A DNA stretch of 64,000 bases, taken from positions 62,001-126,000 of the forward strand of contig JAMPEQ010000003.1 of the NCBI GenBank assembly GCA_023665085.1, written 5' to 3'. Positions 4,341 through 47,372 of this stretch are shown here, in pieces. Origin of the DNA: Bacteroides sp. Lineage in GTDB: Bacteria > Bacillota > Clostridia > Oscillospirales > Acutalibacteraceae. Positions within the stretch are counted from its first letter, which is position 1. Every line of letters begins with the position of its first letter. The translations under genes and the position numbers were made by a program. Below the pieces are notes generated by a model that was not told the DNA's origin, searched no databases, and saw only the letters and a program-made list of their open reading frames with translations.

Positions 4341-5773
4341 TGCCAAACAATACATATAATTCACCTTTTAATGCACGCTATGCTTCAAAAGAGATGCAGT
4401 ATATCTATTCTCCTGATTTTAAATTTAAAACATGGAGAAAGCTCTGGATTGCACTTGCAGAGGCAGAGAATGAGCTTGGTCTCAATGTTACACAGGAGCA
4501 GATCGATGAGCTTAAAGCTCATGCAGATGATATCAACTATGAAGTTGCACAGAATTATGAACGCAAGTTCCGCCATGATGTAATGAGCCATGTTCATGCG
4601 TACGGCGAGCAGTGTCCTAATGCTAAGGCTATTATTCACCTTGGTGCAACAAGCTGTTATGTTGGTGATAATACAGATGTTATCACTATGAGAGAGGCTT
4701 TGCTTCTTATTAAGAAAAAGCTTGTTAATGCAATTTCCTCTGTTTCTAAATTTGCGGATGAATATAAGGATATGCCATGTCTTGGCTTTACTCATTTTCA
4801 GCCGGCTCAGCCAACAACTGTAGGTAAGAGAGCTACTCTCTGGCTTATGGATTTGGTAATGGACTATGAAGAAATCTGCCATGTAATTGATACCCTTATG
4901 CTTTTAGGATCAAAAGGTACAACAGGCACACAGGCATCTTTCCTTGAGCTTTTTGACGGTGATCATGAAAAGTGCAAAGAGCTTGATAAGAAAATAGCAG
5001 AGAAGATGGGCTTTAAGGCATGCTTCCCTGTAAGCGGACAGACTTATGCAAGAAAGCTTGACACAATTGTTTGTAACTGCCTTGGTCTGATTGCACAGTC
5101 ATGCTGCAAGTTTTCAAACGATTTGAGACTTCTTCAGAATCTTAAAGAAATTGAAGAGCCATTTGAAAAGAATCAAATCGGTTCATCTGCTATGGCTTAT
5201 AAGCGTAACCCGATGAGAAGCGAGCGTATTGCATCCCTCGCAAGATATGTTATGATTGATGCACTTAATCCTGCATGGACTGCATCTGCCCAGTGGTTTG
5301 AAAGAACTCTTGATGATTCAGCTAATAAACGTGTTTCAGTTGCAGAGGCATTTCTTGCTACAGATGGTATTCTTGATTTGTATATCAATATAACATCGGG
5401 ATTGGTTGTTTATCCTAAAGTTATTGAAGCAAGACTTATGAGCGAGCTTCCGTTTATGGCTACAGAAAATATTATGATGGATGCCGTTAAAAAAGGTGGA
5501 GACAGACAGGAGCTTCATGAAAAAATTCGTCAGCATTCTATGGCTGCAGGGGCAGTTGTAAAGGTTGAGGGCGGTAAGAATGACCTTGTTGACAGAATTG
5601 CTGCCGATCCTGCATTCATGACTACAAAGGAAGAAATTATGTCAATACTTGAGCCGCAGAATTTTGTTGGCAGAGCACCAAAACAAACTGCTGATTTTCT
5701 TGCAGAGGTTGTTGCTCCTATTCTTGAAAAAGAAAAGGATTTACTTGGTGTGGATGTTGAAATTAATGTTTAA
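4340..5773 (+). CDS. purB: Adenylosuccinate lyase
   Basis: Cleaves SAICAR and adenylosuccinate, releasing fumarate, at two steps of purine synthesis. The 477 residues belong to the fumarase/aspartase superfamily. The signature loop GSSAMAYKRNPMRSER lies near residues 282-297, and GATSCYVGDNTDVI and THFQPAQPTTVGKR mark the other conserved regions. It starts in the purC stop codon, so the product of PurC is handed to the enzyme encoded next. The transcription unit ends in the strong hairpin at 5793-5832. Confidence 0.97.
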   Translation: MPNNTYNSPFNARYASKEMQYIYSPDFKFKTWRKLWIALAEAENELGLNVTQEQIDELKAHADDINYEVAQNYERKFRHDVMSHVHAYGEQCPNAKAIIHLGATSCYVGDNTDVITMREALLLIKKKLVNAISSVSKFADEYKDMPCLGFTHFQPAQPTTVGKRATLWLMDLVMDYEEICHVIDTLMLLGSKGTTGTQASFLELFDGDHEKCKELDKKIAEKMGFKACFPVSGQTYARKLDTIVCNCLGLIAQSCCKFSNDLRLLQNLKEIEEPFEKNQIGSSAMAYKRNPMRSERIASLARYVMIDALNPAWTASAQWFERTLDDSANKRVSVAEAFLATDGILDLYINITSGLVVYPKVIEARLMSELPFMATENIMMDAVKKGGDRQELHEKIRQHSMAAGAVVKVEGGKNDLVDRIAADPAFMTTKEEIMSILEPQNFVGRAPKQTADFLAEVVAPILEKEKDLLGVDVEINV

Positions 5774-5792
5774 TTATTTATATATGTATATT

Positions 5793-5832
5793 AAAATAAC
5801 CCCTCTCGGCTTAGACCGAGAGGGGTTATTTT
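5793..5832. terminator. Bidirectional Rho-independent terminator (purB / 5849 gene)
   Basis: A perfect 17-bp stem (AAAATAACCCCTCTCGG, 5793-5809, with its complement at 5816-5832) around a 6-base loop. A/T runs on both flanks let it act for the converging purB and minus-strand membrane-protein units. Confidence 0.92.
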
Positions 5833-5848
5833 ATGCTCATATCAAGTT

Positions 5849-6340
5849 TTAATCTTGATTTTCTTCTTCGCTTTGGCCGGTTGTGTTAATACCTGCTCTT
5901 GCAGATATTTCATCGGCAATGGTATTTACACAGTTTTTTGTGGTTAGTCCTATGTCAATAGTAACTACTCTTTCATCTTTTAATGTAATGATTATCTGTG
6001 AACTTCTGTCAATGAAATTTTTTACAAGGCTTGCCTTAGTGTCTTTCTTTGCTTCAACTGAAACAATATCTTCATATGCAAATACGTTGTCATTATCTAT
6101 TGCATTGAATTCAAATTCGTCATCATAAAATTTTACGCCGTTGGTAAGCTCCTGCTTTGTTACAAGCACGGCTATTACAAGTGCAGCTAAATCAGCTACA
6201 GCAAAGAATATTGCATTTGCATTTGCAGCATCGATAAGTTTTTTTATTGCAAAAATTCCATATCCTATAACTGCAATATCAAGAACGGCTATAATAGCAA
6301 GAGTGATAGGTGATAATACTCTTATAAATTTTTCTTTCAT
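5849..6340 (-). CDS. Small two-helix membrane protein of unknown function
   Basis: A 163-residue protein with two hydrophobic segments at about residues 10-32 and 42-60, followed by a cytoplasmic-looking domain of about 95 residues with alternating beta strands (FYDDEFEFNA, VFAYEDIVSVEAKKD, SSQIIITLKDERVVTIDI). The pattern of two helices then a beta-rich domain resembles bacterial PH-like membrane proteins, but I cannot assign it to a named family. Its start overlaps the end of the pseudouridine synthase gene by 4 bp (ATGA), so the two are co-translated. Confidence 0.7.
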   Translation of the reverse strand: MKEKFIRVLSPITLAIIAVLDIAVIGYGIFAIKKLIDAANANAIFFAVADLAALVIAVLVTKQELTNGVKFYDDEFEFNAIDNDNVFAYEDIVSVEAKKDTKASLVKNFIDRSSQIIITLKDERVVTIDIGLTTKNCVNTIADEISARAGINTTGQSEEENQD

Positions 6341-7281
6341 ATGAATTTCCTTTCTTTATAATCGTCAAGAAGTTTTATGTTGTCAGCTTTAAATACTTTT
6401 TTGTTTAAATATGATAAATCATTTTCATCGGTAAAATTAAATTCAAGCTTATAGCTGTAAAGTGCTTGTCGGTATCTGCCCTGCTCAATGCCGTATTTTC
6501 CGTCACCATAGAGAGCATGACCAATATGAGCCAGATGTGCTCTTATCTGGTGAGTTCTGCCTGTAAGAAGGTGTATCTCGAGAAGAGAAGCATTATCATA
6601 ATAATCCAGCACTTTATACTGAGTTATGATTTTTTTTGATCCGTCTGTTTGATTGTCGGTAACGGTTACTTTGTTCTTCTTTTCGTCTTTTTTCAGGTAT
6701 GCAGTCAGAGTTTCACTCTTTCTCGGCATTTTACCATGAACAACTGTGAGATAATATTTTTCTATCTCTCTGCTCTTTATTCTCTCGTTAATAATTTTGA
6801 GAGCATTGGAATTCTTTGCACCGATTACAATACCGCCGGTGTTTCTGTCAATTCTGTTAGCGAGAGAAGGTGTGAAGGATGATTTTTCAGGTGACCATTC
6901 ACCTTTTTCATATAAATAACGCTTTAATCTGGCGACGAGATTGTCGATATAATCTTTTCCGTCGGGATGACAAAGTATACCGACTTTTTTGTTAATCAAA
7001 ATTATATTTTCATCTTCATATATAATGTCAATATCTGTTGAGGCTTTTAAAAAGTCATAGTGCTTTTCTTTTATATGGAGTACATCATCCTTTAAATAAA
7101 GCTCAAGCAGATCACCTGAATTCAATATCTGCTCAGCAGTGCAGCGCTTTTTGTTGACTTTAATATTTTTTTTTCTGATTTCTTTAAACATAAGGGATTT
7201 TGGAAGCATATCAAAGGTTTTCATAATAAACCTGTCAACACGCTGTCCTGCATCCGTATCACCAATTACAAAGCTTTTCAT
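6337..7281 (-). CDS. RluA-family 23S rRNA/tRNA pseudouridine synthase
   Basis: Isomerises uridine to pseudouridine in structured RNA. The 314 residues show an N-terminal S4-like RNA-binding segment (about 15-75), the catalytic motif NRIDRNTGGIVIGAKN (Asp about 145) and the RluA C-terminal signature LLTGRTHQIRAHLAHIGHAL with YGDGKYG. These are diagnostic of the RluA/RluD family. The exact modified position cannot be read from sequence. It is the middle gene of a three-gene minus-strand operon, sharing one base with the gene upstream and 4 bp with the gene downstream. Confidence 0.92.
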   Translation of the reverse strand: MKSFVIGDTDAGQRVDRFIMKTFDMLPKSLMFKEIRKKNIKVNKKRCTAEQILNSGDLLELYLKDDVLHIKEKHYDFLKASTDIDIIYEDENIILINKKVGILCHPDGKDYIDNLVARLKRYLYEKGEWSPEKSSFTPSLANRIDRNTGGIVIGAKNSNALKIINERIKSREIEKYYLTVVHGKMPRKSETLTAYLKKDEKKNKVTVTDNQTDGSKKIITQYKVLDYYDNASLLEIHLLTGRTHQIRAHLAHIGHALYGDGKYGIEQGRYRQALYSYKLEFNFTDENDLSYLNKKVFKADNIKLLDDYKERKFI

Positions 7282-7790
7282 TAGTTGTTTTCGCTTTTCT
7301 GTTTCTTTTCTTCTTCAAGCTCCTGTATTTCCTTGTAGAACATATTTGCTCTTACATAAACTTGAATAAAATCTCTCATTATCTCTGCAAGCTCACCTTT
7401 TTTATAAGGATTAAGAAGCAGTCTTTCGTCATCATCAATAACCAGCGGACCTTTTTCATAATCATTAAAGGTTGGCATAAGAGAATAATTCTGAGCAGTT
7501 TTAACGATTGAAATAAGCGTAAGGTCAGCAGTAGCGTTTACAAAGCCTTTCTTTTTTGTGTATTTTTCAATTGTTGAAAGAGGTGAGTCATCATTATGCT
7601 TTTTTGTGTAGCAATAAGAAATAACCTCTTCGACAAAGCTTTCAATCTGATGGTCTGAATAAGGTGCTTTAAGTAAAACCACTTTATCAATGTCTGCAAT
7701 TTGATATTTGTCACTTTCACCGCAGGGAATACCAATCATATTTTCATTTTCGTCAATATAAACGGATATAGTATAAAATTCTTTTTCCAT
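7281..7790 (-). CDS. Conserved acidic protein of unknown function
   Basis: A 169-residue soluble, acidic protein with no signal peptide or membrane segment. The C-terminal 40 residues (EIMRDFIQVYVRANMFYKEI followed by a Glu/Lys-rich tail) look helical and perhaps coiled coil. I do not recognise a family. It heads the operon with the pseudouridine synthase (1-bp overlap at 7281), preceded by a GAGGTATAATT stretch that can serve as a ribosome binding site. The tight coupling suggests a role around RNA or translation, but nothing in the sequence proves this. Confidence 0.65.
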   Translation of the reverse strand: MEKEFYTISVYIDENENMIGIPCGESDKYQIADIDKVVLLKAPYSDHQIESFVEEVISYCYTKKHNDDSPLSTIEKYTKKKGFVNATADLTLISIVKTAQNYSLMPTFNDYEKGPLVIDDDERLLLNPYKKGELAEIMRDFIQVYVRANMFYKEIQELEEEKKQKSENN

Positions 7791-7926
7791 AATTATACCT
7801 CACTTGAATATTGTATTAATTATAACCTATTTGATTGAAAAATACAATATCAGATGATATAATCTATTTTACGATAGTGTTAATTATTTGTTAAGCATTC
7901 ATAATGCTGAAAGGTTATGATGATTT

Positions 7927-8595
7927 ATGAAAAAGGTTTTGATTACGGGCGGTGCAACGGGAATAGGAAAGGCCGCTGCTGTTCTTTTTAACGAAAAAGG
8001 CTATGATGTTTTTATTACATATAATAATACGATACCTGATTTTAATGGTGCTACAGCAATAAAATGCGATTTGACTAATCTTAAAGATATAGAAAATCTG
8101 TTTAATGAGATAGGAAATATTGATGTTTTAGTGAACAACGCAGGTGTCAGCCTTGTTAAATTGATAAATGATACAACAGAAAATGAATACGATGATTTAA
8201 GCAATGTCAATGCAAAGTCATATTATTTCTGTGCTAAGTATGCTCTTAAATATATGATAAAAAAACACGAAGGAGCAATTATCAATATTTCTTCAATGTG
8301 GGGGCAGGTTGGTGCTTCCTGCGAGGTAGCATATTCAATGAGCAAAGCAGCAGTTATAGGTTTGACCAAGGCTCTGGCTCAGGAGGTTGCACCAAGCAAT
8401 ATAACAGTAAATTGTGTTTGCCCCGGTATAATAGATACCAGAATGAATAAGCAGTTTGATAAGAACGAGCTGGCAGACGAGGTGCCTCTGGGCAGACTGG
8501 GTACTGCCGAAGAGGTGGCTAAGGCAGTTTTATTTTTTGCTGAGAGTGAATATATAACAGGTCAGATACTCGGCGTTAATGGGGGAATAGTATAA
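7927..8595 (+). CDS. Short-chain dehydrogenase/reductase (FabG-like)
   Basis: NAD(P)-dependent SDR of 222 residues. The Rossmann glycine motif TGGATGIGKA is at residues 7-16 and NNAG near 75. The catalytic Ser is in NISSMWGQVG (about 120-129) and the Tyr/Lys in AYSMSKAAVIGLTKAL (about 137-152). CPGIIDTRM and the C-terminal GQILGVNGG are SDR marks. It is slightly shorter than a typical FabG and monocistronic, with no fatty-acid genes nearby. The YmfI-type EF-P 5-aminopentanone reductase is an alternative member of the same family; substrate is undecided. Confidence 0.85.
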   Translation: MKKVLITGGATGIGKAAAVLFNEKGYDVFITYNNTIPDFNGATAIKCDLTNLKDIENLFNEIGNIDVLVNNAGVSLVKLINDTTENEYDDLSNVNAKSYYFCAKYALKYMIKKHEGAIINISSMWGQVGASCEVAYSMSKAAVIGLTKALAQEVAPSNITVNCVCPGIIDTRMNKQFDKNELADEVPLGRLGTAEEVAKAVLFFAESEYITGQILGVNGGIV

Positions 8596-8634
8596 AAATT
8601 TCATAGGGCATTTTTTGACTGTGATAATTAAGTA

Positions 8635-8667
8635 AACCCACGAACAATTAATATTCGTGGGTTATTT
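8635..8667 (+). terminator. Rho-independent terminator after the SDR gene
   Basis: A 10-bp stem AACCCACGAA (8635-8644) / TTCGTGGGTT (8654-8663) with a 9-base loop and a short T-rich tail. Confidence 0.75.
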
Positions 8668-8710
8668 GTGACTCAAAAGCCAGTATATTTGCAATTAGCT
8701 AAACAGAGTT

Positions 8711-9463
8711 TTAGGGTTGATAATTATTTAAAATATCAAGAATACCTTTTTGATAAATATTATCATCTAAAACATTTCCGTTTGGTGAAAAGCATATAGC
8801 TCTGATATCTTTTGGATTTTCATCATATGGACTTGTATACTCTGCATTTTCGTCAAAATATTCGTTGAGATATTTTAATGCGTTTCCACTTGGAAAAATA
8901 ATATTTCCTGAGCCAACAGGAATATGCAGATAATCAAATTCTTTTATTATTTCTCTCGTTCTTTCATTGTATGGGTTGTTATCAGTCTCACTAACGAGCC
9001 AGGCCGGACTTAGTTTTATATTTATTTTTGATTTTGATACACATTCAGCAAAATGCTTCACCGGTTCAAGAGGGATTGTTTCCTGGTGAAATGCATCAAC
9101 AGATAATAGTATTTGACAAACACCGCTGTCCTCAAGTTTCTTAACAACTTTTTCTATTCTATTTGAATCTTTAGTAAAAAAACCATTTGTAATCAAATCA
9201 CGCTTAGAAATTCCCATTTCCTTTGCAGCATTATGAATAGCACATACCACTTCAGGATAGAGCAGAGGCTCTCCGCCAAATGTCATCAAAGATTCAATTT
9301 TATATTTATTACACACTTCACGAATTGCCGTTTGTGCAGATTCGGCATCAATATGACCTGTACAATTTGTATGCTCTCCTTGAGAACAATGTTTACATCT
9401 GCCTGTACAAGACATAGTTACTGCAAACTCAATTCTATTTAAATTTTTAACATATTCATTCAT
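8711..9463 (-). CDS. Radical SAM protein of unknown substrate
   Basis: A 250-residue radical SAM enzyme. The [4Fe-4S] cluster motif CTGRCKHC (CxxxCxxC) is at about residues 20-27, and the SAM-binding GGEP is in TFGGEPLLYP at about 61-70. Further strand motifs are DLITNGFF and ILLSVDAFHQE. The C-terminal region has only isolated cysteines, so a full SPASM domain is not apparent. It is preceded by a 140-bp leader with two tiny ORFs and competing hairpins, described separately. The second tiny ORF overlaps this start codon. The weak spacing of its own ribosome binding site (AAAGGA, about 12 bases away) suggests dependence on upstream translation. Peptide modification is possible but unproven. 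Confidence 0.85.
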   Translation of the reverse strand: MNEYVKNLNRIEFAVTMSCTGRCKHCSQGEHTNCTGHIDAESAQTAIREVCNKYKIESLMTFGGEPLLYPEVVCAIHNAAKEMGISKRDLITNGFFTKDSNRIEKVVKKLEDSGVCQILLSVDAFHQETIPLEPVKHFAECVSKSKINIKLSPAWLVSETDNNPYNERTREIIKEFDYLHIPVGSGNIIFPSGNALKYLNEYFDENAEYTSPYDENPKDIRAICFSPNGNVLDDNIYQKGILDILNNYQP

Positions 9464-9527
9464 AATAAACTACATTCCTTTCAAAATTCATTCTGAAATT
9501 AAGATTATGATGCAGTTTTGACAACAT
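9456..9527 (-). CDS. Tiny ORF overlapping the radical SAM start (23 residues)
   Basis: ATG at 9527 with a GAGG ribosome binding site six bases upstream, 23 codons, and a TGA at 9458-9456 that overlaps the radical SAM start codon region by 8 bp. The peptide begins MLSKLHHNLNF and ends NVVYYE. The start and ribosome binding site lie inside the loop of one hairpin (9509-9570). In the alternative hairpin the GAGG is paired. It may be a coupling ORF or a small precursor peptide. The reading is exact but expression is inferred. Confidence 0.45.
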   Translation of the reverse strand: MLSKLHHNLNFRMNFERNVVYYE

Positions 9528-9573
9528 AGTTAACCTCGATACAATCTGCTGTCAGTATTAAAACTGCATCGAG
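9509..9573 (-). promoter_or_regulatory. Leader with mutually exclusive hairpins ahead of the radical SAM gene
   Basis: Stem one pairs GATGCAGTTTT with AAAACTGCATC (plus-strand positions 9509-9519 and 9560-9570, 11 bp). Stem two pairs CTCGAT with ATCGAG (9535-9540 and 9568-9573). The second includes the GAG of the ribosome binding site of the 23-codon ORF. The stems share bases 9568-9570 and cannot form together. The first stem's 5' arm lies in the last codons of the 11-codon leader ORF. This layout resembles translational attenuators. Confidence 0.5.
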
Positions 9574-42771: not shown

Positions 42772-43905
42772 ATGAAAAAAGTATTAGCTGTTTTGCTGGC
42801 AGTGTTGATGACATCATCAATGCTTTCTGCCTGCACTTCAAATCAACAGTCAGGTAATTCTGCTGAAAGTGTAAGTACAAGCACTGAAATAATAGAAGCA
42901 GTATATCCGGCGAATAATTCAGTTGTTAAAATACATACAGAGAGGCAGAAATCAGGACTTGAAAAATCAGACTCTGTTATGTTCTTTTATGCACGCGGTA
43001 AAAAAGAACAGAGCCGACCTGAACCCGTAGAGTTTAAGTGGAAAAGCAGTATTCAGAATGACAATTCCGAATATGTTTTGAACATAAGTGAAAATGAAAA
43101 TATGGCAGAGTCGGTTTCATATTACTCTTCAACAGAAAGCTTGGATGTTTATAATTTAAAAATAGATACAACATATTACTGGACTGTTACATTAAACGGA
43201 ACAACCGGCAGTGTTAATGAATTTACAGTTGATAGTGCTTGCCCGAGAAATTTATATGTTGACGGTGTTACAAATGTTCGTGATATAGGCGGCTGGAATA
43301 CTGAAAATGGATTAAAAGTAAAGCAGGGATTATTGTTCAGATGCGGAAGACTGAATGAGAGCAGTGCAGAAACGGTAAATATTGAAGTAACCAATGCCGG
43401 TAAAAATGTTATGCTTAATGACCTTAAGATTAAAAGTGAAATTGATCTGCGAAAGGCTGATGACGGAGAAATCGGCGGTATATCCTCGAGTCCTTTAGGT
43501 GATACTGTTGCATATTATAATTGCCCTATGGAGTGGGAAGGAGATATGTTTGCAGATAATCGTGAACAGATTTTAAATGTATTTTCTATTCTTTCAAATG
43601 AGAAAAATTATCCGGTTATATTCCATTGCAATATTGGGACTGACAGAACAGGTATGATTTCATTTTTAGTTAATGCACTCCTTGGTGTACCCGAATATAA
43701 TTTGCTGAGAGACTATATGTTCTCTAATTTTGCGGATATTGGCGGATCAAGAAAGGTATCAGGTGTAACTGAAAGCGGATATTATAAAGCTGTTATGAAT
43801 GCCGATGGTAATTCGCTGAGTGAAAAAACCTACAATGCTCTTCTACAGCTTGGTGTGCCAAAGTCTCAGCTTGACTCTGTTATTGAAATATTGTTGGAAA
43901 AATAA
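42772..43905 (+). CDS. Lipoprotein with C-terminal tyrosine-phosphatase-like domain
   Basis: 377 residues. A lipoprotein signal peptide ends in the lipobox LSAC (Cys about 21), followed by a Ser-rich linker, an Ig/fibronectin-like region (about 40-155; TTYYWTVTLNGTTGSV), then a Tyr phosphatase family 3 domain starting VTNVRDIGGW. The P-loop HCNIGTDRTG (HCX5R) has catalytic Cys and Arg, both intact. The enzyme would lie on the outer face of the membrane. Such secreted family 3 phosphatases may act on phosphoinositides or phosphotyrosine; the substrate is unknown. Confidence 0.85.
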   Translation: MKKVLAVLLAVLMTSSMLSACTSNQQSGNSAESVSTSTEIIEAVYPANNSVVKIHTERQKSGLEKSDSVMFFYARGKKEQSRPEPVEFKWKSSIQNDNSEYVLNISENENMAESVSYYSSTESLDVYNLKIDTTYYWTVTLNGTTGSVNEFTVDSACPRNLYVDGVTNVRDIGGWNTENGLKVKQGLLFRCGRLNESSAETVNIEVTNAGKNVMLNDLKIKSEIDLRKADDGEIGGISSSPLGDTVAYYNCPMEWEGDMFADNREQILNVFSILSNEKNYPVIFHCNIGTDRTGMISFLVNALLGVPEYNLLRDYMFSNFADIGGSRKVSGVTESGYYKAVMNADGNSLSEKTYNALLQLGVPKSQLDSVIEILLEK

Positions 43906-43906
43906 T

Positions 43907-43970
43907 AAAAAGTGATTGGAATTTAAGCAGTGCTGCGTTATAGCATCTCAGCTTTTTCCAATCACTTTTT
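43907..43970. terminator. Bidirectional terminator between the phosphatase gene and agrC
   Basis: AAAAAGTGATTGGAA (43907-43921) pairs with TTCCAATCACTTTTT (43956-43970) around a 34-base insert. A/T runs on both sides suit the converging genes. The right arm reaches the agrC stop codon. Confidence 0.8.
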
Positions 43971-45262
43971 TAGTTTACGTTAAATATAATAGAAACACTA
44001 AATTGATTTTCTGTGTCGTCATATTTCCATGCTAAATCGCCGTCATATTTTTTTATACATCGCAAAACACTTTTGAATCCTAATCCATGAAATTCTTTAT
44101 TCGGTTTTGCTGAAATAAGTCTGCCGTTTTTTACGATTGGTTTAGTATCACAGGAATTGACTATATCTAAGATAAACATATCTTCAATTCGGCTTACGTT
44201 GAGTGAAACTGTTTTTTTATGGCTTTTTGCTGCTGCTTCAACAGCATTATCCAGCAGATTATTGAAAATAGATGTTAAATCATTGTCTGCAATAAAATAT
44301 AAGTCGGTATTCGTTATATTTTTTATAAAATCAATATTATTTTTTTTACATATGTAATTGTAGTTGTTTATTATTAAATCAAGAAGTTTGTTTGAAGATT
44401 TTCCAATACGGTTTGCAGTATCTAAATCATTAATAATTTCTTCTATATATTTTTGGGCTTGCTCGGTGTTATCTAATATGTCATATAAATTTTTATAGTG
44501 TTTTTTTGTATCGTGTACAAAAGTCTGAAGCTCTTCATTCTGGTGTTCAAGAAGTTCGAAATATGTTTCGTTAAGCTGTTGCTCCTGATAAATTGATTTG
44601 AGCTCTAGTAATTCTTTTTCTTTTCTTGATTCACTTTGTTGAACAATATTTATTAATATAACCGGAATTATTAAAATAAAACTTGATACTGCTACTAAGG
44701 CCCTTGATTTATCTGATAAATTCTCTTCATATGACACAATTGAAAGTATAATAACTTCTAACAGCATTGATACAGGATATGCCAGTAAAATGAAATTAAA
44801 TTTTTCATTTGTTTTGAATTTGTTTATTATTGATGATATTATTTGCAAAGATACCAGCAATAGTGATTTGCTGATGAGAATATGAATGAAATATGAAAGA
44901 TTGTCGTCATTTTTATAGAAATGCGGATTCCCGTTTGCTGCTGAAATAATATTTATTGCAACAAGCTCTGTTGTACCGACAAGGCATACAATTATTATGG
45001 CATACATTAATGAAAACAGAGGTTTTTCTTTATATAGTATTAGTGCAAAGAAAAATTGAAATGCACATAACACAATTGCATTAACTAAAGAATTATATTC
45101 GAAAGTTAAGTTGATTACACACATAATAATGTAGCTTATTATAATGATAGCCGAGTTTTTTATTTTGATTTTCTTTGCCGAATTATTTATACTTTCATAA
45201 AATGTAAATGTAATAAGACCTTCGATAATCTGAAGTATTACATTCAAAGCATTTGATAGCAC
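43970..45262 (-). CDS. agrC: AgrC-type sensor histidine kinase
   Basis: 430 residues. The N-terminal ~200 residues hold six to seven membrane helices, as in peptide-sensing AgrC. A coiled-coil stretch follows, with the phospho-acceptor box FVHDTKKHYKNLYDIL (about residue 250), then a GHKL ATPase with NNLLDNAVEAA (N box) and FHGLGFKSVLRCIKKYDG (G box). It should detect the cyclic peptide made from agrD by agrB. GTG start with AAGGAG upstream; 3 bp separate it from agrA. Orientation is opposite to agrD-agrB, unlike the staphylococcal BDCA operon. Confidence 0.88.
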   Translation of the reverse strand: MLSNALNVILQIIEGLITFTFYESINNSAKKIKIKNSAIIIISYIIMCVINLTFEYNSLVNAIVLCAFQFFFALILYKEKPLFSLMYAIIIVCLVGTTELVAINIISAANGNPHFYKNDDNLSYFIHILISKSLLLVSLQIISSIINKFKTNEKFNFILLAYPVSMLLEVIILSIVSYEENLSDKSRALVAVSSFILIIPVILINIVQQSESRKEKELLELKSIYQEQQLNETYFELLEHQNEELQTFVHDTKKHYKNLYDILDNTEQAQKYIEEIINDLDTANRIGKSSNKLLDLIINNYNYICKKNNIDFIKNITNTDLYFIADNDLTSIFNNLLDNAVEAAAKSHKKTVSLNVSRIEDMFILDIVNSCDTKPIVKNGRLISAKPNKEFHGLGFKSVLRCIKKYDGDLAWKYDDTENQFSVSIIFNVN

Positions 45263-45265
45263 AGT

Positions 45266-45973
45266 TTACCTTCTCCTTCTAATATAATCATCAAAAAATT
45301 CCCTAAAGTCCTTTTGACATCTGTATGAAATAGGAATTATTTCATTATTTGTCAGTATAACCTCACATCTTTTATATTTTTTTACATAATTGAGATTTAT
45401 TATGAAACTTTTGTGAATTCTGCGAAAACAAGCCAAAGTAAGCTCTTTCTGCCAGTCGTCAATTAATTCTTTTGAATAATATGTTTCGTTTTCAGTAACA
45501 ATTTTTGTTTTGCGGCTTAATGTTTCAATATATAAGATATCATTTGAATTAATTTTTGTGATTTTTGATGATTCTTTTATGTATACATCTAAAGGTATAT
45601 TACTGATAAGTTCAACTGCACGATCAAGACCGCTGTAAAATCTGGAATAATCAAGAGGTTTTTTCAAAAATCTGAGTGCCAGATAATCCATTGCATTATC
45701 CATGTATTTTTCGTAATTTGTTATAAAAAATATAATTATATTTTTATTTTTCTTTTTCAGATGTTCTGCAATATCCAGACCTGTTTTTTTATCAATTTCT
45801 ATATCCAAAAATGCTATATTGTATAATGATTCAGATTTAGCTGCCTCTTCAGTATTATCAAAGCTATCATAAAAGCAATCAATGTTGTGTTCGTCACAAT
45901 ATTTTTCTAAATAGTTAATAATAGTTTCACTGCATGTTTGCTCATCGTCACAAATAAGTGCATTAATTGTCAT
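45266..45973 (-). CDS. agrA: AgrA-type LytTR response regulator
   Basis: 235 residues: a receiver domain (about 1-120; acidic pair in ICDDEQ, phospho-acceptor Asp in AFLDIEIDKKTG, Lys in FLKKPLD) and a C-terminal LytTR DNA-binding domain (about 135-235; FRRIHKSFIINLNYVKKY). This is the AgrA architecture. ATG 45973 has a perfect AGGAG site; the open frame upstream to 46033 lacks one. LytTR regulators bind 9-bp direct repeats spaced by about 12 bp, and such a pair lies before agrD. Confidence 0.9.
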   Translation of the reverse strand: MTINALICDDEQTCSETIINYLEKYCDEHNIDCFYDSFDNTEEAAKSESLYNIAFLDIEIDKKTGLDIAEHLKKKNKNIIIFFITNYEKYMDNAMDYLALRFLKKPLDYSRFYSGLDRAVELISNIPLDVYIKESSKITKINSNDILYIETLSRKTKIVTENETYYSKELIDDWQKELTLACFRRIHKSFIINLNYVKKYKRCEVILTNNEIIPISYRCQKDFREFFDDYIRRRR

Positions 45974-46059
45974 GTTATCTCCTAAAAATAAAAAAAGACT
46001 CAAAGCATTAAACTTTAAGTCTAATATTACCATATTATTACATCTTTATCAATCTCTAT

Positions 46060-46386
46060 TTAAAGATTTTTGCTTTCTACATAAGTTAGCAGCAATTTAA
46101 AAATTGTTTCTTTTTCTTGTTGAGTCAGTTCACGTATTAAATCAATAATATTATCATCAACAGTATCTTTTATTGCACCTGAAAGAAGCTGACAGGGACA
46201 AACATCCAGCTCCTTGCATAGACTTATTAAGGTGTTGAATGAAAGATTATTTTTTCCCCGTTCAAGATTTGAAATTTCCGTAACGGATAAATCTATTCTT
46301 TCTGCAAGTCCCGCCTGTGTATATCCATTTGCTTTTCTAAAGTTAGAAATTCTTTTTCCTATTATTTCACTGCTGTCTATTCGCAT
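46060..46386 (-). CDS. XRE-family helix-turn-helix regulator in the agr locus
   Basis: 108 residues. A five-helix Cro/C1-type HTH at about 8-65 (IGKRISNFRKANGYTQAGLA, ISNLERGKNNLSFNTLI), followed by a short C-terminal helix pair. ATG 46386 follows AAGAGGCGAT; the upstream in-frame codons lack a site. It lies first in the minus-strand unit, 86 bp ahead of agrA and divergent from agrD, so it is well placed to regulate one or both directions. A role in agr control is inference. Confidence 0.85.
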   Translation of the reverse strand: MRIDSSEIIGKRISNFRKANGYTQAGLAERIDLSVTEISNLERGKNNLSFNTLISLCKELDVCPCQLLSGAIKDTVDDNIIDLIRELTQQEKETIFKLLLTYVESKNL

Positions 46387-46515
46387 ATTATCGCCTCTTG
46401 CTAATATTAACATTATTAAAGCGTTATTAAAATATAACAGTGTTTCAAAACTACCAGTTAAACTTGAAAAATATTAAAATGAATTTTATATTTTTATGTT
46501 TTATTTGAAAAATGT

Positions 46516-46545
46516 GCAGTTTGGTAATAAAAATCTGCAGTTAAG
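46516..46545 (+). promoter_or_regulatory. Probable AgrA binding box (two 9-bp direct repeats)
   Basis: GCAGTTTGG (46516-46524) and GCAGTTAAG (46537-46545), period 21 bp with a 12-bp spacer. The staphylococcal AgrA repeat is ACAGTTAAG with the same spacing. The pair ends 9 bp before the -35 element of the agrD promoter. A further single CCAGTTAAA is at 46454-46462. Confidence 0.75.
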
Positions 46546-46554
46546 GTGAATTTA

Positions 46555-46583
46555 TTGATAATTTAATCGTGAAATTGTATAAA
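46555..46583 (+). promoter_or_regulatory. Promoter of agrD-agrB
   Basis: TTGATA (46555-46560), 17 bp, TATAAA (46578-46583), 20 bp ahead of the agrD start codon, overlapping nothing but directly preceded by the AgrA-type repeats. Confidence 0.75.
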
Positions 46584-46603
46584 AATTAAAAGGAGGTATA
46601 AAA

Positions 46604-46744
46604 ATGAAAAATAAAAAGGTATCAAAAATAGTAAATTTAATTAACTTTTCTTTAAAAGTTGATGCAAATTCAACTAGCACGCTATCTGTTTTTCAGCCTA
46701 AAATGCCAAAGCAGTTAGAGCAGTTCAAGAAGAATAATGATTAA
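46604..46744 (+). CDS. agrD: AgrD-like cyclic autoinducer precursor peptide (46 residues)
   Basis: 46 codons from ATG 46604 behind a perfect AAAGGAGG site. It has the three parts of an AgrD precursor: a basic amphipathic N-terminal helix (about 1-19, MKNKKVSKIVNLINFSLKV), a central peptide ANSTSTLSV (about 21-29) and the conserved acidic/lysine tail FQPKMPKQLEQFKK (30-43). By alignment with known precursors (five-residue ring then [Y/F]xPK), the ring would be Ser25-Thr-Leu-Ser-Val29, a lactone, since Ser replaces the usual Cys. The last 8 bp overlap agrB. Identification is from pattern and context. Confidence 0.88.
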   Translation: MKNKKVSKIVNLINFSLKVDANSTSTLSVFQPKMPKQLEQFKKNND

Positions 46745-47330
46745 TAAACTATCAGCTTATCTAACAAATGTTATGATAAATAAAAAAATAATCGAGCCGG
46801 ATGAATTTGAATTATATCATTATGGATTATTTGTAACAATTACAGAAGCATGGCTTATGATATTCTGCATCCTTGCAGGGATAATATTCAATGTTATACT
46901 TCAAAGTATAGTGTTTTTTATTATGTTTTTTCTTGTGCATAGATTTGCAGGTGGTTTTCACGCAAAAACCGAGTGGCAATGTCAGATAATAACATTATCC
47001 ACCTTTTTTCTTTGTATAGCAGGAATAAAGTATGAAACTAACATCAATATGATATATATGATTGTTGTATATATTGTATGCTGTGTTGTCATAATTATAC
47101 TGTCGCCTGCAGATACTCCGCAGAAACCGCTTAGCAAGGCGGAAAAAATGAAATTCAAGAAAATAACTGCTGTAATTGTTTTAATATGCTCAGTTATTGC
47201 TGCATTGTTTTTATTAAACAGCAAGACCGTTACTTTTGCATATGCAATCATAAATGGCATGATGCTGCAAACAGTATCGGTTATATTCGGAAGATTGCTA
47301 AATCAAAAAGTGCTTTCGGAAAAACAGTAA
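46737..47330 (+). CDS. agrB: AgrB-type peptide-processing membrane protease
   Basis: 197 residues with about five to six membrane helices. The catalytic dyad of AgrB is present: His75 in HRFAGGFHAKTEWQC and Cys82, with seven residues between them as in S. aureus (His77, Cys84). It cleaves the AgrD tail and closes the ring, at the inner membrane. It overlaps agrD by 8 bp, an order (D then B) reversed from staphylococci. The transcript ends in the hairpin at 47334-47372. Confidence 0.92.
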   Translation: MINKLSAYLTNVMINKKIIEPDEFELYHYGLFVTITEAWLMIFCILAGIIFNVILQSIVFFIMFFLVHRFAGGFHAKTEWQCQIITLSTFFLCIAGIKYETNINMIYMIVVYIVCCVVIIILSPADTPQKPLSKAEKMKFKKITAVIVLICSVIAALFLLNSKTVTFAYAIINGMMLQTVSVIFGRLLNQKVLSEKQ

Positions 47331-47333
47331 AGC

Positions 47334-47372
47334 AAACCTCTATGGTGTAAAAACGCTATAGAGGTTTTGTTT
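47334..47372 (+). terminator. Rho-independent terminator of agrD-agrB
   Basis: A 10-bp stem AAACCTCTAT (47334-47343) / ATAGAGGTTT (47358-47367), then TGTTTTG. Confidence 0.8.

Follow-up and report, generated by a model that had tools for sequence, protein, structure and literature searches.

The stretch of DNA analysed here (hereafter the window; 64,000 nucleotides of contig JAMPEQ010000003.1, assembly GCA_023665085.1, placed by GTDB in the Acutalibacteraceae) contains a complete agr quorum-sensing locus, probably in working state, in which the precursor peptide AgrD has a threonine, Thr26, in the column occupied by cysteine or serine in its relatives. Comparison of the precursors and of the processing enzyme AgrB suggests, at a probability that we put at about 0.68, that Thr26 closes a five-residue ester ring, TLSVF, and that the locus is a Thr-lactone agr system. 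Its gene content is that of an agr system, and it should function accordingly; in its predicted ring residue it departs from the usual Cys or Ser. The features of the locus are as follows.

43970..45262, minus strand: agrC, a 430-residue sensor kinase with a GTG start and a GHKL ATPase domain (PF14501, 7e-20, 71 bits)
45266..45973, minus strand: agrA, a 235-residue LytTR response regulator (PF00072, 45 bits; PF04397, 69.9 bits)
46060..46386, minus strand: xre, a 108-residue HTH_3 regulator between agrA and agrD (PF01381, 2.5e-12)
46515..46542, plus strand: putative AgrA-type box, direct repeat TGCAGTT-N14-TGCAGTT, 21 bp from repeat to repeat
46555..46583, plus strand: probable agrDB promoter TTGATA-N17-TATAAA, 12 nt after the box, read by eye
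46590..46596, plus strand: Shine-Dalgarno sequence AAGGAGG of agrD, read from the sequence
46604..46744, plus strand: agrD, a 46-residue precursor with the core DANSTS-[TLSVF]-QPKMP (TIGR04223, NCBIfam AgrD, 22.4 bits against a cut-off of 19)
46679..46681, plus strand: codon ACG of Thr26, the ring-closing residue of AgrD predicted by column comparison
46737..47330, plus strand: agrB, a 197-residue AgrD peptidase (PF04647, Pfam AgrB, 126 bits against a cut-off of 23) with predicted catalytic His75 and Cys82
47334..47367, plus strand: intrinsic-terminator-like hairpin after agrB

The first-pass annotation had described a complete divergent locus, with agrC and agrA on the minus strand and a 46-codon agrD overlapping agrB on the plus strand; all of its coordinates hold, and its readings of STLSV followed by FQPK in AgrD and of His75 and Cys82 in AgrB were correct. 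The overlap is 8 bases long; xre, the tandem repeat before agrD and the two further agr loci of the genome were absent from its list. Of the features by which an agr system is recognised, an AgrD found by its family model, an AgrB with both His and Cys, an AgrC kinase and a LytTR AgrA are present. Two checks proposed for AgrD, a hit to its family model and conservation of the short frame, both came out positive, the latter because a 43-52 codon AgrD with a Shine-Dalgarno match of 5-6 bases lies at the same place in six further loci. The gene order differs from that of staphylococci, as had been remarked, yet agrD before agrB with divergent agrA and agrC is usual in its own family, being found in 40 of 43 relatives of the AgrB clade delimited below.

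A scan of the contigs of GTDB genomes (84,980 species) with an AgrB alignment gave 107 relatives, of which 80 were kept, making 81 AgrB rows together with the window. Seventeen rows in which the script filter saw no AgrD beside AgrB were removed, although three of them (loci L091, L108 and L124) seem to have AgrD. The 64 rows used were the window and the 63 of 80 loci in which AgrB was paired to an upstream AgrD, whose start codons were picked by Shine-Dalgarno score. In the tree, built by IQ-TREE from AgrB only (support as bootstrap/SH-aLRT), the window joins loci L051-L056 at 100/100, their AgrB proteins being 43-56% identical to that of the window, and these seven form a sub-clade nested in a clade of 44 rows (bootstrap 96, SH-aLRT 92).

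Among AgrD proteins of the D-B layout in the genus, the segment from Asn22 to Pro32 aligned without gaps (window, ANSTSTLSVFQPK; paralog in the same genome, ANSTSCMIYYQPK; others, ANSTTCGAVYQPQ, ANSTTCAHIYQPK and SNSTTSVTAYQPK), and the Cys column fell on residue 26, one past Ser25. The Cys paralog of the same genome, reading NSTSCMIYYQPK, has Ser25 and Cys26 side by side, and in this AgrB family the Cys sits six residues before the Pro of xPK, which corresponds to Thr26 of the window. Over the 64 rows, residue 26 was Cys in 32, Ser in 13 and Thr in 8; the other 11 rows, in which L107 and L095 were counted, have Cys at 25 (C25 rows). Within the 44-row clade only Cys (25 rows), Ser (12) and Thr (7) occur at this position, in 44/44. 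Thr replaces the usual Cys or Ser in all seven members of the sub-clade and is encoded by ACA, ACT or ACG, while residues 27-29 are variable; the predicted rings are TLSVF, TMMAY, TTVAF, TLAAF, TGAAY, TFLSF and TTMAF.

The locus had previously been read as a Ser-lactone system on the pattern of Listeria and staphylococci, with the ring STLSV closed by Ser25 and the precursor cut before Phe30. The ester part of that prediction stands, since an AgrD without Cys would yield an ester (lactone) and not a thiolactone, if cyclised, whereas the choice of Ser as the ring residue appears to be off by one, because the Cys position had been taken from Listeria, seven residues before the Pro of xPK. Ser25 does occupy that position, where the 11 C25 rows have their Cys, and serine lactones are already known according to passages of PMC12312760. 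However, the 44-row AgrB clade includes none of the 11 C25 rows, and its residue 25 is Thr in 30 rows, Ser in 11, Asn in 2 and Gly in 1 and so need not be the nucleophile. Five of the seven Thr loci have Ser at residue 25 and the other two, L052 and L056 among the six relatives of the window, have Asn, and Gly25 is found in L076; six Cys-type rows of the clade, like the paralog in the same genome, keep Ser25 next to Cys26. Unlike the Ser of the Staphylococcus intermedius type, Ser25 therefore stands outside the nucleophile column, where the window has Thr, and closure by Ser25 seems to us unlikely.

It was also found that Cys and Ser interchange, the four ring-residue labels needing 12 changes on the AgrB tree. 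The AgrB proteins of L069 (Ser26) and L080 (Cys26) are 95.5% identical and stand beside the cores NSTTSGFMF and NSTTCWAVY, respectively, as if the peptide type had been switched next to an almost unchanged enzyme. Thr26 recurs in a distant precursor, that of L102 (TAATWVFNQPK), which has neither Cys nor Ser and whose AgrB frame is open; this locus (5730-6552), the eighth Thr26 row, belongs to an Oscillospiraceae metagenome-assembled genome (MAG) far from the window in the tree. Loci L054, L062, L064 and L085 come from one MAG (Lapin-020 bin106) whose agr precursors are one of Thr type, one of Ser type and two of Cys type; a single cell may thus combine three predicted ring chemistries. In L036, L038, L043 and L048 other kinds of AgrD were seen, in which a sequence such as SEWDV or SDWCT precedes Y/FQPK and Ser takes the column-25 register; L036 has two adjacent AgrD copies.

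The Thr precursors are accompanied by changes in AgrB. His75 and Cys82 are invariant in 44/44 AgrB proteins of the clade. Residue 68 is His in 6/7 Thr-clade proteins (L054 keeps Arg) and Arg in 37/37 others; Phe70 occurs in 7/7 versus 4/37 (mostly Tyr70), Phe74, beside His75, in 7/7 versus 2/37 (mostly Tyr74), and Gln83, beside Cys82, in 7/7 versus 5/37. Passages of PMC10196373 describe an R70G form of Staphylococcus aureus AgrB without peptidase activity, R70 being matched to residue 68 only by its spacing to His and Cys. A search for a solved structure of an AgrB relative found none, giving only three unrelated transporter sequences (E 0.26-0.35).

Several observations weigh against Thr26 as the closing residue of a five-residue ring, or against the evidence drawn from the clade. 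The seven Thr sequences have one common ancestor, and T26 therefore represents one event plus L102, not seven. As many as 21 AgrB positions passed the clade-specific filter, about seven of them between residues 68 and 88, near His75 and Cys82 in sequence, and the branch leading to the Thr clade is long (1.2 changes per site), which makes drift a fair alternative to adaptation for the AgrB changes. According to passages of PMC10482373, S. aureus AgrB1 and AgrB2 are unable to process a Ser precursor, and some adaptation of AgrB to a hydroxyl is thus to be expected. In the genomes of the six relatives, the box found before agrD had no exact repeat, and its 19 one-mismatch matches, against 20 in the reversed control, were noise. 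The aromatic residue at position 30 and the following QPK are kept in both registers, including the Cys25 rows, and position 30, Y/F in 57/64 rows, might belong to the leaving group whichever register applies. With the cut before Phe30, Thr26 would close a four-residue ring, TLSV; such rings would end in Ala, Ser or Val, without a bulky residue, and the autoinducing peptides (AIPs) tabulated in the part of PMC12312760 covered have rings of at least five residues, which makes this form quite unlikely. Finally, none of the seven Thr loci varies at Ser23 or Thr24, and one of these hydroxyls might close a larger ring like that of GBAP, a nine-residue Ser ring described in passages of PMC12312760, or the signal might be linear. 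However, Thr24 (41/44) and Ser23 (35/44) are common in the wider clade and stand beside Cys26 and Ser26 as well, and hence look like recognition residues, and over the 44 rows no residue other than Cys, Ser or Thr stands in column 26; a larger ring or a linear signal is accordingly very unlikely. With these points taken into account, closure of TLSVF by Thr26 remains the reading that we favour.

The layout of the locus is likewise shared by relatives. Divergent agrA/agrC is missing from three loci of the 44-row clade, two of which (L063 and L082) are on contigs of about 3.4-3.5 kb, and a match to xre was found by tblastn in 28 of the 43 wider relatives. All seven Thr loci keep xre, agrA, agrC, agrD and agrB, with identities of the six relatives to the window of 45-51% for AgrC, 50-63% for AgrA and 40-69% for Xre. 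The locus belongs to an agr family that occurs in Oscillospirales-like bacteria of gut and rumen, and the bacterium that carries it is itself related to gut species. Two further agrB genes are present in the same genome, both beside Cys precursors, with D before B on contig 11 and B before D on contig 30. In L055, a second full-length AgrC (45% identical to that of the window) and an AgrA-like gene lie downstream of agrB (6728-9552), a duplicated receptor. In the window, agrC is adjoined by a gene for a tyrosine phosphatase (Y_phosphatase3, 94 bits) with a lipoprotein-like start (42772-43905); nothing ties the phosphatase to the agr system.

Further Thr members were sought by AgrD alignment in 394 genomes of the order and by AgrB in 398 genomes of the family and three genera, and none beyond the six was found at E 1e-35 or better; the matches at this level being the six known loci, on contigs of equal length, and the window, the Thr clade stays at seven. 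At the same threshold the system is patchy, being present in 4/80 genomes of the genus of the window and in 2/39 and 1/22 of two others. This patchiness, together with the loss of Cys, could be taken as a sign of a decayed locus that makes no signal. To the contrary, five intact genes are present in each of seven loci whose AgrB proteins have diverged to 43-56% identity with both catalytic residues in place, Thr26 has been kept through different codons, and the ribosome sites are good; decay is thus highly improbable. A mobile origin was considered and rejected: AgrB matched 2 of 50,697 phage records (32-33% identity over under half of the protein), 1 of 72,556 plasmid records and, in a scan of IMG/VR, 2 loci at 21-24% identity.

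Upstream of agrD, the direct repeat of TGCAGTT is expected 0.05 times per window at up to one mismatch, as estimated by shuffling. The promoter that follows is missing from the list of the consensus scan because that scan demands T as the last base of the second hexamer. The box pattern was derived from the agrD site of the window, and it is from this single site that we infer which of the AgrA-like regulators of the genome would bind the box. In the same genome the exact repeat occurs six times (reversed-pattern control, 0), namely at agrD, at three other sites outside frames of 100+ codons and at two inside such frames. There are also 13 one-mismatch sites (control, 0), and the four examined all lie across open frames. 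The half-site pattern GTGCAGTTTKGTA gave 27 matches at up to one mismatch against 4 in the control; the surroundings were read at 19 places besides agrD, many of them inside genes. With a wider form of the box, six sites matched with no more than one mismatch, all of them outside frames of 100+ codons (control, 0), and two more matched with two mismatches, both inside frames; since known sites served to write this form, its five exact matches are not independent. The five non-coding sites other than agrD (L191, L193, L194, L201 and L204) are each upstream of a large frame and constitute a candidate regulon in this genome. The genes downstream of them are:

contig 7: subtilase, 763 residues
contig 27: subtilase, 789 residues
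contig 27: RHS-core protein, 1385 residues
contig 21: protein with DNRLRE and OmpL47-type domains, 966 residues or more, cut by the contig end
contig 22: frame of 2225+ codons with no match in NCBIfam or PADLOC

The two subtilases and the RHS and DNRLRE proteins have a hydrophobic, signal-like start as judged by eye, which the frame of 2225+ codons does not have. Weaker half-sites precede a DUF4062 gene and a gene for a 344-residue protein without a family match. Neither of the two further agr loci of the genome showed a TGCAGTT-type box in the genome-wide pattern scans. Single half-sites were noticed by eye before agrD in L051 and L055; a stricter box pattern matched in 0/6 relatives, but it is itself three mismatches from the box of the window and so unfit. 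Since the one-mismatch matches in relatives did not rise above the control, the list of targets holds at most for this genome.

The transfer of an acyl group from a thioester to an alcohol is downhill. The cut site, ring chemistry, sensing and regulation that we infer for the locus can be outlined as follows. AgrB, using Cys82 and His75, would cut AgrD after Phe30 and hold the peptide as a thioester, which would be attacked by the hydroxyl of Thr26, where relatives have Cys or Ser, to give the ring Thr-Leu-Ser-Val-Phe. Passages of PMC4979651 present the corresponding published scheme, in which the thioester on the AgrB Cys is attacked by the AgrD nucleophile, and the cut after Phe30 is favoured because most AIPs tabulated in the part of PMC12312760 covered have a five-residue ring. 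A short tail such as NSTS, its length being a guess, would remain on the product; the calculated [M+H]+ of the cyclic form is 937.46 with the tail NSTS, 1008.50 with ANSTS and 823.42 with STS, each 18.01 below the linear peptide, and 790.39 (NSTS) or 861.43 would correspond to a cut before Phe30. The secreted Thr-lactone peptide would be sensed by AgrC, and AgrA would then bind the tandem TGCAGTT box and raise expression of agrDB and of a small gene set including the two subtilases and the RHS protein.

The Cys-thiolactone agr systems of Staphylococcus, Listeria and Clostridium share with this locus the AgrB family, the AgrD family model, a GHKL AgrC, a LytTR AgrA and a direct repeat before agrD, but here the order is D-B, agrC and agrA are divergent and accompanied by xre, the nucleophile column is one residue nearer xPK, and Thr takes the place of Cys. 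The AIP of S. intermedius and S. pseudintermedius, RIPT[STGFF], has a five-residue ester ring made by AgrB, as is predicted here, with Ser at the Cys position instead of Thr. According to passages of PMC12312760, Clostridium difficile has comparable clostridial agr systems, with a Ser ring in agr2 (NSA[SSWVA]) and D before B in agr1 (agrD1B1), whereas its ring residue is three after Asn and not four. The Oscillospirales-like Cys26/Ser26 loci (for example L061, L080, L094 and that of contig 11 in the same genome) have a similar operon layout and the same core N-S-T-x-[nucleophile]-xxx-[Y/F]-QPK; they differ in having Cys or Ser at 26, and in AgrB Arg68 (37/37) with mostly Tyr70 and Tyr74.

No Thr-closed AIP ring was found in the literature searched for Thr rings in AgrD or AIPs, a search for which most subscription papers were outside reach. 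The word threonine is absent from the main text of PMC12312760, PMC3673130, PMC10196373, PMC10482373 and PMC8748961, and in the passages covered of PMC13220807 and PMC10301443 it has only unrelated uses; review passages in PMC12312760, PMC3673130 and PMC10482373 name only Cys and, rarely, Ser rings. The earlier suggestion that the peptide is undescribed agrees with this search. On balance we lean towards these being the first natural AIPs closed by a Thr ester, made by a clade in at least three genera in which the residue moved together with changes at the AgrB active site, and in genomes where Cys agr systems (and in one MAG a Ser system) may be retained as well.

The occurrence of Cys, Ser and Thr in one column, with a Cys-Ser swap at about 95% AgrB identity, amounts to a natural experiment on the way in which AgrB accepts its nucleophile, and the same variation probes how AgrC reads sulfur, oxygen or a methyl-bearing ester. 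Ester signals of this kind would escape AIP discovery directed at thiols and should resist thiol exchange. For the present genome, the box yields a short, testable list of candidate targets, comprising the two subtilases, the RHS protein and others.

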